A stretch of 64,000 bases of DNA, taken from the NCBI GenBank assembly GCA_002720095.2, contig PBGP02000022.1:1-64000 (forward strand). Reading direction: 5' to 3'. The first letter of the stretch is position 1. The number at the start of each line of letters is the position of its first letter. Positions 6,289-12,939 of this stretch are shown here, one piece after another. Origin of the DNA: Methanobacteriota archaeon (GTDB lineage Archaea > Thermoplasmatota > Poseidoniia > Poseidoniales > Poseidoniaceae). The position numbers and the translations under genes were made by a program. The notes below the pieces were generated by a model. It did not search any database and was not told the DNA's origin. It saw nothing but the letters and a program-made list of their open reading frames with translations.

Positions 6289-8052
6289 TTATTCGAGTAA
6301 TCTTCCATCTACAGATAGGTCTTGATATGCATTAACAGGCCCTTCTAGCTCATCTGGGAGTGGCGTTACATTATTACGCGTCACTACTTGCTTACTTTCT
6401 ACTAATTCGACAATGTAGTTCACATTTTCTGTTGTGTCGATTTCTGTAAAATCACTTCTTTGATGTGCCCCCCTACTTTCTTTACGCTCAATCGCACATC
6501 TAATTGTTGCCTCAGCACTATCAATTGAGCCTAGTAAATCTAATGCTAGGGCAAGATCAGAGAAACCTTCAGCACTTGGTCTAACATCTACATCCTTAGA
6601 TGCCTCTTTAACCTTCATCAATTCTTCAAGTCCTTTTTGCAGACCCTCTCCAGAGCGTAAAACACCGCAGTAATTCCACATAATATCTCTAACAGCCCTT
6701 TGTAATGGGCGTGCTAATTGTTCTCCATTCGTTGTTAATTTGTCTAGCTCCTCAATAGCTTCTTGGATAATACTTCTATTTCTTGTCTGAAGATCTAATG
6801 TTTCAGAAAATTTTGCAGCTTCGTCACCTGCGATTTTTCCAAATACTAGAATTTCAGCTAGAGAATTACCTCCGAGTCGATTCGCCCCATGAACTCCAGA
6901 TGTACATTCTCCAGCAGCATACAATCCTATTACGCCAGTAGAATGAGTCTCAGGATCTACCACAACTCCCCCCATACTATAATGTGCAGTTGGAGCCACC
7001 TCCATTGGGTGTTTAGATATGTCAAGCATTTGTGATTCCATGAATTGTCTGTACATTCTGGGAAGTTTTTCAAGAATAATGCCTTTATCAACATGGCTTA
7101 TGTCTAGATATACGCCGTTGTTCTCGGTTCCACGTCCTTCTGAAATTTCTGTATAATTTGCCAAAGCAACACGATCTCTTGTTGATAGTTCCATTCTTAC
7201 AGAATCATAATGTTTCATGTAACGCTCTCCTTGAGAATTAGTCAATCTACCTCCTTCACCTCTGACAGCTTCAGTCACAAGAGTGCCTGCGAGTGACTCA
7301 GGGTGGACCATTCCAGTAGGGTGAAATTGAACCATCTCCATATCAGATAGTTTGCAACCTGATTTAAGTGCTAATCTCATTGCATCACCTGTATTTTCAT
7401 CCCTCCGAGATGAACTTCTTCTCCAAATCCTAGTGTGTCCTCCTGCAGCCAGTACTACAGAATCTGAAAGAAACACAGTTCTTTCTCCAGAATTAATGTC
7501 AAATGCCATGGCTCCAAAACATTGTTTCTGGCCATTTTGTGTATTTACTAACAATCTAGACACATAAGTCATATCAATTATTGGGATTTGCAACTGCTCT
7601 ACTTTTTCTACAAGTGTACTGAGAATTGCTCTTCCAGTGTAATCTCCAGCATAGCAAGTCCTTCTGTAAGTATGGGCGCCAAAATATCGTTGGTCTAATT
7701 CACCATCTTCTGTTCTAGCAAATGGAGTGCCCCAGTCAACTAACTCTCTCACTCTGTTGGGGGCATCCTTAACTAAAATTTCAACAGTCTTAGGATCTCC
7801 GATGTGATAACCTTCTTGATAAGTGTCAACAAAATGTTGAATCCAGTCATCTTCAGGGTCTACAGTCCCAAGAGCTGCATTGATTCCACCAGCAGCTAAG
7901 GTGGTATGAGCGTCGTTTTTAATTCGCTTTCCAATCACCATCACCTCACATCCGCTTTCATGTGCTGCGATAGCAGCTCGAAGTCCAGCACCACCTGAAC
8001 CAATTATCAGTACATTGCAAATTTTTGTTCTATATTCTTTCATTATAATCAC
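6289..8052 (-). CDS. Succinate dehydrogenase/fumarate reductase-type flavoprotein subunit
   Basis: 587 aa; GSGGAGLRAAIAA FAD motif, covalent-FAD region AHTTLAAGGINAALG, QFHPTGMVHPESLAGTLVTEAVRGEGGRL, STRDRVALA, TAHYSMGGV, GLYAAGECTSGVHGANRLGGNSLAE. Confidence 0.9.
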   Translation of the reverse strand: MIIMKEYRTKICNVLIIGSGGAGLRAAIAAHESGCEVMVIGKRIKNDAHTTLAAGGINAALGTVDPEDDWIQHFVDTYQEGYHIGDPKTVEILVKDAPNRVRELVDWGTPFARTEDGELDQRYFGAHTYRRTCYAGDYTGRAILSTLVEKVEQLQIPIIDMTYVSRLLVNTQNGQKQCFGAMAFDINSGERTVFLSDSVVLAAGGHTRIWRRSSSRRDENTGDAMRLALKSGCKLSDMEMVQFHPTGMVHPESLAGTLVTEAVRGEGGRLTNSQGERYMKHYDSVRMELSTRDRVALANYTEISEGRGTENNGVYLDISHVDKGIILEKLPRMYRQFMESQMLDISKHPMEVAPTAHYSMGGVVVDPETHSTGVIGLYAAGECTSGVHGANRLGGNSLAEILVFGKIAGDEAAKFSETLDLQTRNRSIIQEAIEELDKLTTNGEQLARPLQRAVRDIMWNYCGVLRSGEGLQKGLEELMKVKEASKDVDVRPSAEGFSDLALALDLLGSIDSAEATIRCAIERKESRGAHQRSDFTEIDTTENVNYIVELVESKQVVTRNNVTPLPDELEGPVNAYQDLSVDGRLLE

Positions 8053-8056
8053 ATTT

Positions 8057-10315
8057 TTATCCTAAGAGGAATAGGCTTAGTTGCATAATTGCGGCCCCAA
8101 ATAGCCCGCCAACAATCATGTGTTGAGGACGATTTTGCTGTAGCGCCTGTGGAATTAATTCTTTGTATGCAACCACGGTCATAATTCCACCAACAAAGGC
8201 TAGAGAGCATCCTACCATAATCGGTGTTAGGATTGATCCAAGTATTAACAAAGCAAATAATGCGCCCAATGGCTCTGTAAGGCCTGTAACCATTGCGATA
8301 AGCGTAGCCTTCAATCTTCCGCCATTACCTGCTTGTATAGGAGCTGCGACAGCAATACCTTCAGGAATATTGTGTAGAGCAATTGCCGCCATAAGAACTA
8401 CGCCATACTGAGCTGATTCTAGAACAGCAACACCCATTGCTAAACCTTCTGGAAAATTATGTATTGCAAGTGCTATAGCCGTTAAGATTCCAGACTTGTA
8501 TAATTTTTTCTCATTACTCAAATCAATATTCTCAATGTCCCTGTTTGCGTAATAACTCACCGCGTAGACTACTAGTATTCCTAAGGTGAAAGAAAGAGAG
8601 ATTGACATAAATCCAAATTCTAAAGCTCTTCCTAACCATAAATCAACAATTGAAACTAGTAGCATGACACCTGCAGCCATAGCTAGCATAAACGACATTA
8701 ATTCAGCGGTTATTTCTTTGAGGATGAAAACAATTAATCCTCCGATACCAGTTGCTAGACCAGCCATTAAGGCTAATACAAATGGGAAAACCCATGATGA
8801 AGATTCACCTTCAAGCCCTTGAATTTGGATAATTGGTTTATTTTCATCATGTCCATTTTTTAACAAAATAATCTCTAAAATTATTTCAACAGTTAATCCA
8901 AGACTTTCTTCATGAACTATACCTGCAACATCATCCTGTGTGTGGTACTCTTCATACTCCCAGCCAAAAAACCCTAAAGTTTTAATGCCCTTGTTGTTGA
9001 AAGATCGATGATCACTATTTCCTCCATTTTTAATATGATTTACTGTAGTAGAATATCCATCCCAACCACCATCAAGAACCTCTGAAGAGATTTTAATTAT
9101 TGGTTCAACCATTTCTAATTCTGAGGACTCGATACCTAAAGTTCCCAAACCTTTGTTTGGATTGAGATTGGTAGAATCAAGATTAATATATAAATCTAAA
9201 TTCTGAGATTCTTCTAGATTCGCATTTATATACGCTTGACTTCCTAGTAAACCTAATTCTTCTCCACCCCAAGTTGCAAATTTAATTGTAGTATCTAGCT
9301 CCAAATAACTTAGTTGGGTGGCAATTTCTAGTAATTGAGCAACACCAACAGCATTGTCGACTGCTCCAGGGCTGATATATGCGGAATCATGGTGAGCCCC
9401 AATCATTATCTTTTTGTCGGAGTTACCTGTTAATTCTCCCGTTACTACTCTAACAGTGCGAGTACCAACATTATTTCCTTCCCAAAATCCGTCTAGGGAT
9501 GGGAATAATGTTGGATCTTCTTCAGCTTGTTCGATATATTCATGGAAAGTAATTGCTACGCTCTCCGAGATATATATGAAAGGTATCAATAAGTCTGCAT
9601 ATTCACCACCATATGCATCTGGGAAGGGTACAGTTTCTCCGTTTTCTTGCACAGTAACAGTTCTGAATGGGGGTACTTCAACACCTTCTGTGTATATCAT
9701 AACTACTCCAGCATTTTGATCTATGGAGTCTTTATAAATATCAGATAAATTTCGCTGGTTATCATAATTTATCATTACCGCTAAATCTGTCAAATCGCCA
9801 GCTGAGATGAAATTTTCACTTGAACCATTACCTAAAAATGTGATTATATTGTCATGTTTGTGGTTAGAACCTGAATACCCAAGATAAGTAAATTTTTCAA
9901 TGTGGTTTAAACTTCCTGTAGAATCTAATTGGACTCTTGCAACACCTCCAGCGCCATCAGGAGCACCTGGAATATTTTGAGCGCCTTGCTCCAATTGAGC
10001 ATGCATCAAAATTTGATGTTCTTCTGGGTCTGCATCTACAAACCATGCACCAGTGACTTGATATTCTTCGATTTGAACATTATCTAAACCGATATCAGTA
10101 AATCTGTTTTTGATATAATTTGCAGCATCACTTTCTTCACTAGATCCGGTAACACGTGGACCGAAAGAAGTTATGTTTTCGACATCATTCATAATTATGT
10201 CATCTTCAATTGAAAATGAAATTTCTTCTTCTCCTAATAAGAGCCCTGCAGTCAAACTCGAAACCAGAACTATAGCGGAAATAATTCCGGTGATGACGAG
10301 TAGATTTTCCTTCAT
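8057..10315 (-). CDS. Fusion protein: N-terminal M28-family zinc aminopeptidase + C-terminal ZIP-family metal transporter
   Basis: 752-aa single ORF. Signal/TM start; M28 ligands in GAHHDSAYISPGAVDNAVG, WGGEELGLLG, NLDSTN, HTQDD; C-terminal half with ZIP motifs IHNFPEGLAMGV and LHNIPEGIAVAAP and several TMs. Confidence 0.9.
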   Translation of the reverse strand: MKENLLVITGIISAIVLVSSLTAGLLLGEEEISFSIEDDIIMNDVENITSFGPRVTGSSEESDAANYIKNRFTDIGLDNVQIEEYQVTGAWFVDADPEEHQILMHAQLEQGAQNIPGAPDGAGGVARVQLDSTGSLNHIEKFTYLGYSGSNHKHDNIITFLGNGSSENFISAGDLTDLAVMINYDNQRNLSDIYKDSIDQNAGVVMIYTEGVEVPPFRTVTVQENGETVPFPDAYGGEYADLLIPFIYISESVAITFHEYIEQAEEDPTLFPSLDGFWEGNNVGTRTVRVVTGELTGNSDKKIMIGAHHDSAYISPGAVDNAVGVAQLLEIATQLSYLELDTTIKFATWGGEELGLLGSQAYINANLEESQNLDLYINLDSTNLNPNKGLGTLGIESSELEMVEPIIKISSEVLDGGWDGYSTTVNHIKNGGNSDHRSFNNKGIKTLGFFGWEYEEYHTQDDVAGIVHEESLGLTVEIILEIILLKNGHDENKPIIQIQGLEGESSSWVFPFVLALMAGLATGIGGLIVFILKEITAELMSFMLAMAAGVMLLVSIVDLWLGRALEFGFMSISLSFTLGILVVYAVSYYANRDIENIDLSNEKKLYKSGILTAIALAIHNFPEGLAMGVAVLESAQYGVVLMAAIALHNIPEGIAVAAPIQAGNGGRLKATLIAMVTGLTEPLGALFALLILGSILTPIMVGCSLAFVGGIMTVVAYKELIPQALQQNRPQHMIVGGLFGAAIMQLSLFLLG

Positions 10316-10449
10316 GCTGACAATTAAGATGGCGCGAGTCTTCGTATCTAAATTTTAGGTGTGCCTAAAATTTTATTAAATTTCAATAATTCTTAAATAT
10401 AGGCTTTTTTCTCTTAAAATCAATATTTAATAATTAAAATAAATTAATT

Positions 10450-12939
10450 TTAGTCTAAACCTAGCCACCAGGATATTTTCCATTCCCCTTCATCAAATGA
10501 TATTACCATTACAGTTGGATCATCCCAGAACCAATTTGAATACTGGTTTTGATTATAATCATATTTCCATGATGTAAATGCTAAATAGTCATTGTCTCCA
10601 AAATGAGATTCCCAATTACTATTTTCGACTACAAACTCAATACAAGCATCTCTGATTCCTTCGTCACTCATGCCATCATCCATGAAAAATCCACAATCTC
10701 CATCTAAAATTTGAGAATTATCCTTTATGACAAAATTATAATCTGAGATCAGATTGTCCATTGTATAGTCTGAATAATCACTTCCTATTGGATGACAAAA
10801 TTCATCCGTTGAGTCAGGGCAAAGGCTCTCTTCATTCGTCCTAATAGATTCAATGCTTGTATCAAAATTACATATTTCGCCATTATCGTATAACCCATTT
10901 CCATTTGTGTCCTCGTATTCTAGACATCCTGTAAGTCCACCCCAAAGAACAACATCATCACCTTCAAAGTAGCTGTAAAATGTATCTCCATCACCAGTGA
11001 TAAAGGTCTCCATTAATAATCTAAAGAATTCTTCTGCCATTTCAGAAGAACTTTCAGTTGACGTGTAAGCACTCCAGACTAAGGTTTCATGGTATCCTCC
11101 GAAACCCCTCCAAATAAGATTTGAATCCGAAGTAGATGGTTCATCAACATTGAAGGACGTTATTTCTCCTTCTAAATCGTACAGGACACCTTTTGAAGTA
11201 TCGACAGCAACACCATCTATAGATGATGCATCGGCTAAATCTTTTCCGTTACATCCCATGCAGGTCCATACTAAATTATTCTCCCAGAGTTCATTTTCAT
11301 CACCGCCTGGACCATTATGTCCATAGTTGGTAGTTTCAACTAATTCTTCAATATCTCTTAGTGTTATTTTTTCCACAGTGAAGTACAGAATTCCTTTTGA
11401 TAATTCAACACTTACTCCGTTTATTGAAGTAGCATCTGCTAAATCTTTTCCATTGCAATTCTCACAAGACCAGAATAGATTAGGCTCCCATATTTCAGAA
11501 TCGTCTCCGCCAGGACCATAGTGTCCGTAGTTAACAACCCCTGACTGAGAATCATCATCGGAAGAGAAAGCCCTCCAGGTGGGTTCATTAGAATTAAAGA
11601 TTGTTTGCTGTAATTCTGTAATGTAAATTATTCCTTTCTCAAGATTGACATTAACTCCGTTAATATTTGAAGCATCGGATAAATCTTTTCCGTTACAACT
11701 ATTACATGTCCATTCTAACTCTTCTTCCCATAAAACAGAGTCATCTCCTCCGACTCCATAATGTCCTAAATTTGTAGATTCAGTTCTACTTTGCCATTCG
11801 TAAACGTTACCTGCACCCACGATGTAACATCCAGTGGAAATTCCATGGGAGTTCGCATCATTGAATGCTCCATCCCAAATACCACCAGCTTCAATGGAGG
11901 CTTGTTCACATAATTCAACACTTGTGGCGCTAGAAACAAACTGACCATATTGCGAGTTTTGCCATTCATAAACATCGCCTGCGCCAACTATGTAGCATCC
12001 AGGTATGATTCCATGATAGTCTGCATCTTCAAAGACTCCATCCCAAATCCCATCAGCTTGTATGGATGTATCTTCACACAACGTGGGGGTTGTAGCTTCT
12101 GAGACAAATTGTCCATAGCTGTTATCTTCTGATAAGCTGTATGTTCTCCAGGTTGGTAAACCAACATTGACAATTGTCTGTTTAGAATCTAGGAGGTATA
12201 CTATGCCTTTGCCAGAAATTATATTTTCACCGTTTATGGTTTCTGCATCTGCTAAATCTTTACCATTACAGCCATCACAAGTCCATTGTAAGCTTTGTTC
12301 CCAAACTTGAGAGTCATCTCCACCAGGACCATAATGCCCAAAATTTTCATTGAGCGTAGAATCTGTTGTAGACCCATCGTTAAATGAGATTGTACATAGC
12401 GGGTTATTTTCGCAATTTTCAGCAGCTTTCTTAGTACTCAAATCTTTGATACTTGTGTCTCCAGCAATACTTTTACCCTGATATTGAATGCTGACAACTA
12501 AATTACAGTCATTACCGAAGATACAAATGTCTTCGCCATTTTCAGATATGGTAATAATTTCATTACTAGCCCATACGCTATCAGGTGTTTCTTCGGTAAT
12601 TAGGCATTTGTCGCTAGTTGGGCTACATTTGTAAGATTTAGAGTCAATTTCTTCAAAAAGTGCGATTGTAAGAAAAGACCATTTTAGGTCTTCAGGTCCA
12701 CTTGGGAATGAAAGCCTCAAGAGTCTATCCTCAGTCCCACTTTCGCTAGGTTCGTAAATATTCTCTACGGCATAATTATTCAGTGGAACTGCACTTGGTT
12801 GAGTACTGGCTAGTTCACTCGCCCATGTATACAAAACTCCAGATAGAACCACTGTAATGGCTACCATTAAAATTGTTGCAATGACAGGACTGACGGCTTC
12901 TTCATCTTCTTCATTCTTTAAATGACCTAATCTGCTCAT
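10450..12939 (-). CDS. Archaeal pilin-like (class III signal/DUF1628-type N-terminus) large repeat surface protein
   Basis: 829 aa; N-terminus EDEEAVSPVIATILMVAITVVLSGVLYTWASEL is archaeal pilin-like; four modules of N(F/L/Y)GH(Y/N)G(P/V)GGD...W.C..CNGKDL(A/S)DA..I(N/D)G. Confidence 0.88.
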   Translation of the reverse strand: MSRLGHLKNEEDEEAVSPVIATILMVAITVVLSGVLYTWASELASTQPSAVPLNNYAVENIYEPSESGTEDRLLRLSFPSGPEDLKWSFLTIALFEEIDSKSYKCSPTSDKCLITEETPDSVWASNEIITISENGEDICIFGNDCNLVVSIQYQGKSIAGDTSIKDLSTKKAAENCENNPLCTISFNDGSTTDSTLNENFGHYGPGGDDSQVWEQSLQWTCDGCNGKDLADAETINGENIISGKGIVYLLDSKQTIVNVGLPTWRTYSLSEDNSYGQFVSEATTPTLCEDTSIQADGIWDGVFEDADYHGIIPGCYIVGAGDVYEWQNSQYGQFVSSATSVELCEQASIEAGGIWDGAFNDANSHGISTGCYIVGAGNVYEWQSRTESTNLGHYGVGGDDSVLWEEELEWTCNSCNGKDLSDASNINGVNVNLEKGIIYITELQQTIFNSNEPTWRAFSSDDDSQSGVVNYGHYGPGGDDSEIWEPNLFWSCENCNGKDLADATSINGVSVELSKGILYFTVEKITLRDIEELVETTNYGHNGPGGDENELWENNLVWTCMGCNGKDLADASSIDGVAVDTSKGVLYDLEGEITSFNVDEPSTSDSNLIWRGFGGYHETLVWSAYTSTESSSEMAEEFFRLLMETFITGDGDTFYSYFEGDDVVLWGGLTGCLEYEDTNGNGLYDNGEICNFDTSIESIRTNEESLCPDSTDEFCHPIGSDYSDYTMDNLISDYNFVIKDNSQILDGDCGFFMDDGMSDEGIRDACIEFVVENSNWESHFGDNDYLAFTSWKYDYNQNQYSNWFWDDPTVMVISFDEGEWKISWWLGLD
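11095..12350 (-). repeat. Intragenic repeat array: four CxxCNGKDLADA modules plus a nested duplicated YGQFVS...CYIVGAG.VYEWQ pair
   Basis: Modules at about 12130-12349, 11561-11775, 11327-11536 and 11095-11332; nested pair at about 11957-12123 and 11790-11955. Read from translation and nucleotide sequence. Confidence 0.88.

Follow-up and report, generated by a model that had tools for sequence, protein, structure and literature searches.

In the window, the whole 64,000-nucleotide stretch of Poseidoniales DNA analysed here, the minus strand at 8057..10315 encodes an M28 peptidase ectodomain and a ZIP transporter fused into a single chain of 752 residues. Judging from its sequence and context, we interpret this protein as an Fe(II) importer, repressed by iron, whose tethered ectodomain would supply iron at the pore, a reading to which we assign a probability of roughly 60%. 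Marine Group II archaea abound at the ocean surface, where iron is frequently in limiting supply; in these genomes, in which FeoB was not detected, the fusion, unusual in its design, is a candidate for the import of ferrous iron. Fusion and iron box together suggest an undescribed way to scavenge scarce iron.

The reading frame starts with ATG, is uninterrupted over all 752 residues, as first annotated, and ends with the stop codon at 8057-8059; all its parts lie on the minus strand. The membrane segment expected at the N-terminus is present as an anchor helix (residues 3-27, 10235..10309), seen both in the model and as a hydrophobic stretch in the sequence. The ectodomain consists of an N-terminal part (about residues 78-285, 9461..10084), delimited from Pfam, model and fold match, and the M28 catalytic domain (residues 291-482, 8870..9445), assigned from Pfam, residue alignment and fold match. 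From the model, the N-terminal part probably contains a PA-like insertion, as in aminopeptidase 2ek8; Pfam gives no PA domain match there. A linker follows (about residues 489-504, 8804..8851), with low pLDDT at 489-496, and then the ZIP transporter, with eight helices between residues 509 and 751 (8063..8791), assigned from Pfam, NCBIfam, alignment and model. The junction had been placed near 8805, which is indeed residue 504 or so.

Both domains named in the initial annotation score far above the curated Pfam cut-offs: Peptidase_M28 matches residues 291-482 (E 1.6e-34, 119.8 bits, cut-off 21.3) and Zip residues 605-745 (E 5e-23, 82.3 bits, cut-off 35.1). The NCBIfam ZupT equivalog NF003243 spans residues 507-751 end to end at 193 bits, below its 252-bit cut-off; by this measure the transporter half is ZupT-like without qualifying as ZupT. 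The nearest solved structures found with phmmer are the aminopeptidase 2ek8 for the front half and BbZIP for the back half. An AlphaFold2 model built from 38 fused sequences (mean pLDDT 83; pTM 0.64, at which the mutual placement of ectodomain and ZIP half is unreliable) shows the anchor helix (3-27), a folded ectodomain and, after a weakly predicted linker (489-496), eight helices from 509 to 751. In a Foldseek search with this model, the ectodomain best matches M28 aminopeptidases, with the transferrin receptor and GCPII ranking below them.

By residue alignment, the M28 metal ligands are His308, Asp320, Glu353, Asp380 and His458, and the catalytic residues Asp310 and Glu352; the ligand set is complete, as claimed at the outset. 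In the transporter half, the metal-centre positions are Met551, His619, Asn620, Glu623, His648, Asn649, Glu652 and Glu681, conserved across all members of the fusion family save for one Asn649Thr. The motifs HNFPEG and HNIPEG, recognised earlier in transmembrane segments, start at His619 and His648, and sequence and model together give the eight transmembrane helices with HNxPEG-type metal motifs of the ZIP family. E. coli ZupT and BbZIP (5tsa) likewise have eight helices, with HNxPEG in helices 4 and 5, and six of the eight metal-centre residues of BbZIP are identical in the window protein by alignment. Unlike these transporters, the fusion has an M28 ectodomain on the same chain and iron-box control, and it falls below the ZupT equivalog cut-off. 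In animal ZIP4 and other LIV-1 ZIPs an extracellular domain also precedes the first ZIP helix, but those domains are not peptidase folds.

Loci read directly contain both domains in one open frame in 42 copies from 41 Poseidoniales (Marine Group II) genomes, the result of the search for the two-domain architecture in related genomes; full-length homologues are about 46-77% identical. The gene is patchily distributed: 43 of 320 genomes of the order have it, and many relatives thus do without. With a profile of the ZIP part only, searched over these 320 genomes, matches above about 200 bits lie in long frames, typically of 757-803 residues, unless a contig end intervenes. The order's remaining ZIPs stand alone (about 270-320 residues, a few up to 362) and reach at most 91 bits, and no stand-alone close relative of the fusion's ZIP was found among the 320 genomes. 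Outside the order, in 392 genomes of the phylum, ZIPs score no higher than 177 bits, nearly all in stand-alone-sized frames. The only ZIP-alone fragments, in G204 and G244, are interrupted by contig ends, and the idea that relatives encode two separate genes fails. A scan of named genomes matched solely records of marine Poseidoniales/Euryarchaeota, including four single-amplified genomes (AG-333-I22, AG-404-K16, AG-461-G23 and AH-287-P07), which excludes a metagenome-assembly join. Purifying selection acts on both halves, to judge from dN/dS between near pairs (about 0.04-0.15 in the M28 half and 0.02-0.17 in the ZIP half); the fused copies, the single-cell genomes and these ratios together dispose of the assembly chimera or frameshift considered at first. 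The ZIP is the more conserved half, and pairwise distances in one half correlate with those in the other (r = 0.85). The closest stand-alone M28 gene, in G322 (same class, another family), adjoins an iron-dependent-repressor/FeoA gene, with a ZIP gene about 2.5 kb away; no iron box was seen at this locus.

Ahead of the fused gene, 38 bp from the start codon, lies a candidate DtxR/IdeR-type iron box, TTTAGGCACACCTAAA (10354..10369, minus strand). Upstream of the fused genes a palindrome, TTTAGGnnnnCCTAAA, recurs; in many of them a TATA-like stretch comes after it, and its usual distance from the start codon is 24-41 bp. Its core at the fusion promoters is identical to TTAGGNNNNCCTAA, the 14-bp core proposed as consensus for IdeR/DtxR iron regulators (PMC8464063; see also PMC10317159). 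Within one mismatch, the palindrome precedes 32 of the 34 copies examined, against 0.04% of shuffled upstream sequences; the two others, in G122 and G084, have degenerate versions only. The core does not occur in 585 kb of control DNA, nor in 100 kb surrounding M28 genes that stand alone.

Six perfect iron-box sites occur in the window's genome, versus two for a reversed control pattern. Besides the fusion, sites precede an operon for a CarboxypepD_reg protein, PBP, FecCD, ABC, flavodoxin and HugZ, the suf operon, a heme operon led by hemA, at whose start the site lies, and a 510-residue Fea1 (low-iron-inducible) protein (suf and hem genes other than hemA were named by reading the sequences); one site near sugar-nucleotide genes may be due to chance. 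In nine of 14 genomes compared, an iron box lies 213-298 bp upstream of a transferrin-lobe match, and in five genomes one lies about 4 kb upstream of a Fec binding protein. Of 51 genomes, 41 have a DtxR-family repressor; in the window's genome, this protein maps to the region G000:C17:10214-10417. A core near the promoter, sites before known iron genes and a repressor in the genome are what a DtxR/IdeR regulon should present, and the fusion gene very probably belongs to such an iron regulon.

Across the window's genome and 42 others, some four perfect sites per genome were counted in Poseidoniales, as opposed to roughly 0.4 with the pattern reversed, and this small regulon covers Fec/flavodoxin/HugZ, suf, hem, transferrin-lobe and Fea1 genes. 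In the window's genome (G000), its sites are on contigs C7, C13, C14 and C22. The archaeal Fea1-family gene, which an iron box immediately precedes, occupies L225:12984-14513 (G000:C7:50983-52512) on the minus strand. On the same strand, L225:3069-5243 (G000:C7:41068-43242) encodes a protein of 725 residues that Pfam Transferrin matches repeatedly (121 bits) and that seems to have two lobes; ABC transporter genes adjoin it. Among solved structures, the single-lobe relatives from other genomes best match lactoferrin and ovotransferrin, and these transferrin-lobe proteins may be the 'lactoferrin-like' peptidases reported in MGII (PMC6336850).

The genomic position of the fusion varies between genera, and a search for a conserved operon partner found none. 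Near the fusion are ferrochelatase, HugZ, flavodoxin and FecCD/PBP genes in genus g12, HugZ/flavodoxin/Fec in G229, a flavodoxin beside G255a and a binding protein in G029/G164; in G202/G203/G206 and G287, the gene of a transferrin-lobe protein adjoins it. None of the same iron and heme queries was found in 39 control regions; the queries were picked after the loci had been seen, so the comparison is supporting evidence only. FecCD is approximately single-copy per genome. A search of 79 Poseidoniales genomes, of which 22 have a completeness of at least 90%, gave no FeoB (FeoB_C) match, and the control search recovered FeoB in seven of 14 reference genomes.

When iron is sufficient, an Fe(II)-loaded DtxR-family repressor, which we infer to bind the promoter palindrome, would silence the gene; when iron is short, the fusion protein would be made. 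Its first helix is predicted to hold the M28-fold domain at the cell exterior, from which the chain would run on into the eight-helix ZupT-type ZIP, whose N-terminus likewise should face out. Next to the entrance of the ZIP, the ectodomain may then capture a peptide or protein ligand that carries iron and, in most members, would probably trim it, upon which the ZIP would transport Fe(II) inward. ZupT types are broad and the substrate of the ZIP is not readable from sequence; a ZupT-like ZIP could reasonably import iron, as ZupT is counted among Fe2+/divalent-cation uptake proteins in a passage of PMC3475125 that cites Grass et al. 2005. It is likely that the fusion imports iron, and we suggest tentatively, at somewhat less than even odds, that proteolysis is the iron-freeing step. 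The functional tie between ectodomain and metal import put forward in the initial annotation is still the best reading; zinc as the metal is not. The release of metal from peptide ligands at the importer, proposed there as well, may hold if the metal is iron.

The fusion proteins fall into two subfamilies. Subfamily A comprises 36 copies, the window protein included, and shares fold and co-catalytic ligand set with M28 aminopeptidases (2ek8, B. subtilis BSAP, P. aeruginosa PaAP); unlike these, the fusion is membrane-anchored and transporter-fused. All five ligands and the catalytic Asp and Glu are present in 35 of the 36, which argues for selection on catalysis there; the sole exception, G255a, has lost Asp320, Glu352 and His458. 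In subfamily B (G047, G199, G287, G319, G255b and G261), the ligand set is broken: the final histidine is absent from its aligned position in all six, Asp320 is additionally lost in five, and His308 in G287. A CxHYREY motif is conserved close to the lost histidine in five of the six copies and could provide a histidine, for which reason we call these peptidases no more than presumably inactive. The ZIP site of subfamily B is intact despite the degraded peptidase site, so a role of the ectodomain beyond catalysis is probable; dN/dS on the M28 part of subfamily B pairs is about 0.13-0.15. Since subfamily B and G255a have no intact site, proteolysis cannot be essential everywhere. As these sequences read, the peptidase site can disappear while ectodomain and transporter persist. 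Subfamily B and G255a also keep the iron box where upstream sequence exists. One genome, G255, has both subfamilies, at L110:1093-3354 (G255a) and L114:3-2234 (G255b).

The main rival to iron supply with peptidase action is a docking role, favoured by subfamily B, in which the M28 fold mainly holds an iron-binding protein that passes its iron to the ZIP pore; the partner would be the transferrin-lobe or Fea1 protein of the same regulon, and peptidase activity would be secondary. The loss of peptidase residues from proteins that keep ectodomain, ZIP site and, where visible, box fits this role, as do the low dN/dS of the subfamily B M28 part, the shared box of the transferrin-lobe genes and their position next to the fusion in four genomes, and the transferrin receptor structures returned by Foldseek below the aminopeptidases. 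Transferrin receptor 1 and GCPII are type II membrane proteins which, like the fusion, have a short N-terminus, one membrane helix and an M28-fold ectodomain, and the iron context of the transferrin receptor resembles that of the fusion; neither has a transporter on its chain. TfR1 has lost its peptidase site and the window protein keeps one: the lost site expected of a pseudopeptidase receptor is confined to subfamily B and G255a, and the retention of every peptidase residue in nearly all of subfamily A speaks against docking as the main role, which we consider rather unlikely. Less likely still would be a fusion that forms an archaeal, independently evolved counterpart of transferrin and its receptor, with capture, release and import on one chain and transferrin-lobe or Fea1 proteins docking on the ectodomain. 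Intact and broken peptidase sites among the members make a cutting versus a binding role of the ectodomain testable.

For zinc, as opposed to the iron import preferred here, one may point to the use of zinc by M28 peptidases and to ZupT, the nearest named ZIP family, being a zinc transporter; an exported zinc peptidase joined to a zinc importer would then serve zinc nutrition or peptidase metallation. The apparent DtxR-type iron regulon and the iron and heme neighbours indicate a different metal, and subfamily B has lost zinc ligands yet retains the fusion, so this explanation is improbable; the zinc link drawn between the halves fails as a nutrient reading, and coupling of metallation to transport finds no support in a family of which a whole subfamily keeps the transporter without the peptidase ligands. 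A zinc regulon was abandoned once the iron box had been discovered. Similarly improbable is that the fusion merely co-expresses and anchors an amino-acid-scavenging peptidase with a metal transporter, for which the many extracellular peptidases of Poseidoniales (PMC6336850) and the weakly structured predicted linker can be cited, but the close ZIP relatives never lack the M28 domain in 320 genomes, the distances of the halves correlate, and the ectodomain persists in members with degraded peptidase sites.

No published account of an M28-ZIP fusion was found in a literature search that is incomplete, so that an earlier mention is possible; the main text of an archaeal fusion survey (PMC11237513) mentions neither M28 nor zinc. 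Nor was an account of iron uptake in Marine Group II archaea found. The family of each half is known; what appears to be undescribed, as far as the literature shows, is their combination, its control by iron and the loss of an intact peptidase site in the sister subfamily. Ocean metatranscriptomes that already exist would allow the iron-box regulon to be checked.

Directly downstream of the fusion, a gene for a succinate dehydrogenase/fumarate reductase-type flavoprotein occupies 6289-8052 of the window on the minus strand; it is also beside the fusion in G059, G066 and G069 and is common to two genera. On the other side, 10450-12939 (minus strand) encodes an 829-residue protein with an archaeal type IV pilin N-terminus, the translation of which contains repeated segments of the form NYGHYGPGGDDSxxWExxLxWxCxxCNGKDLADA.
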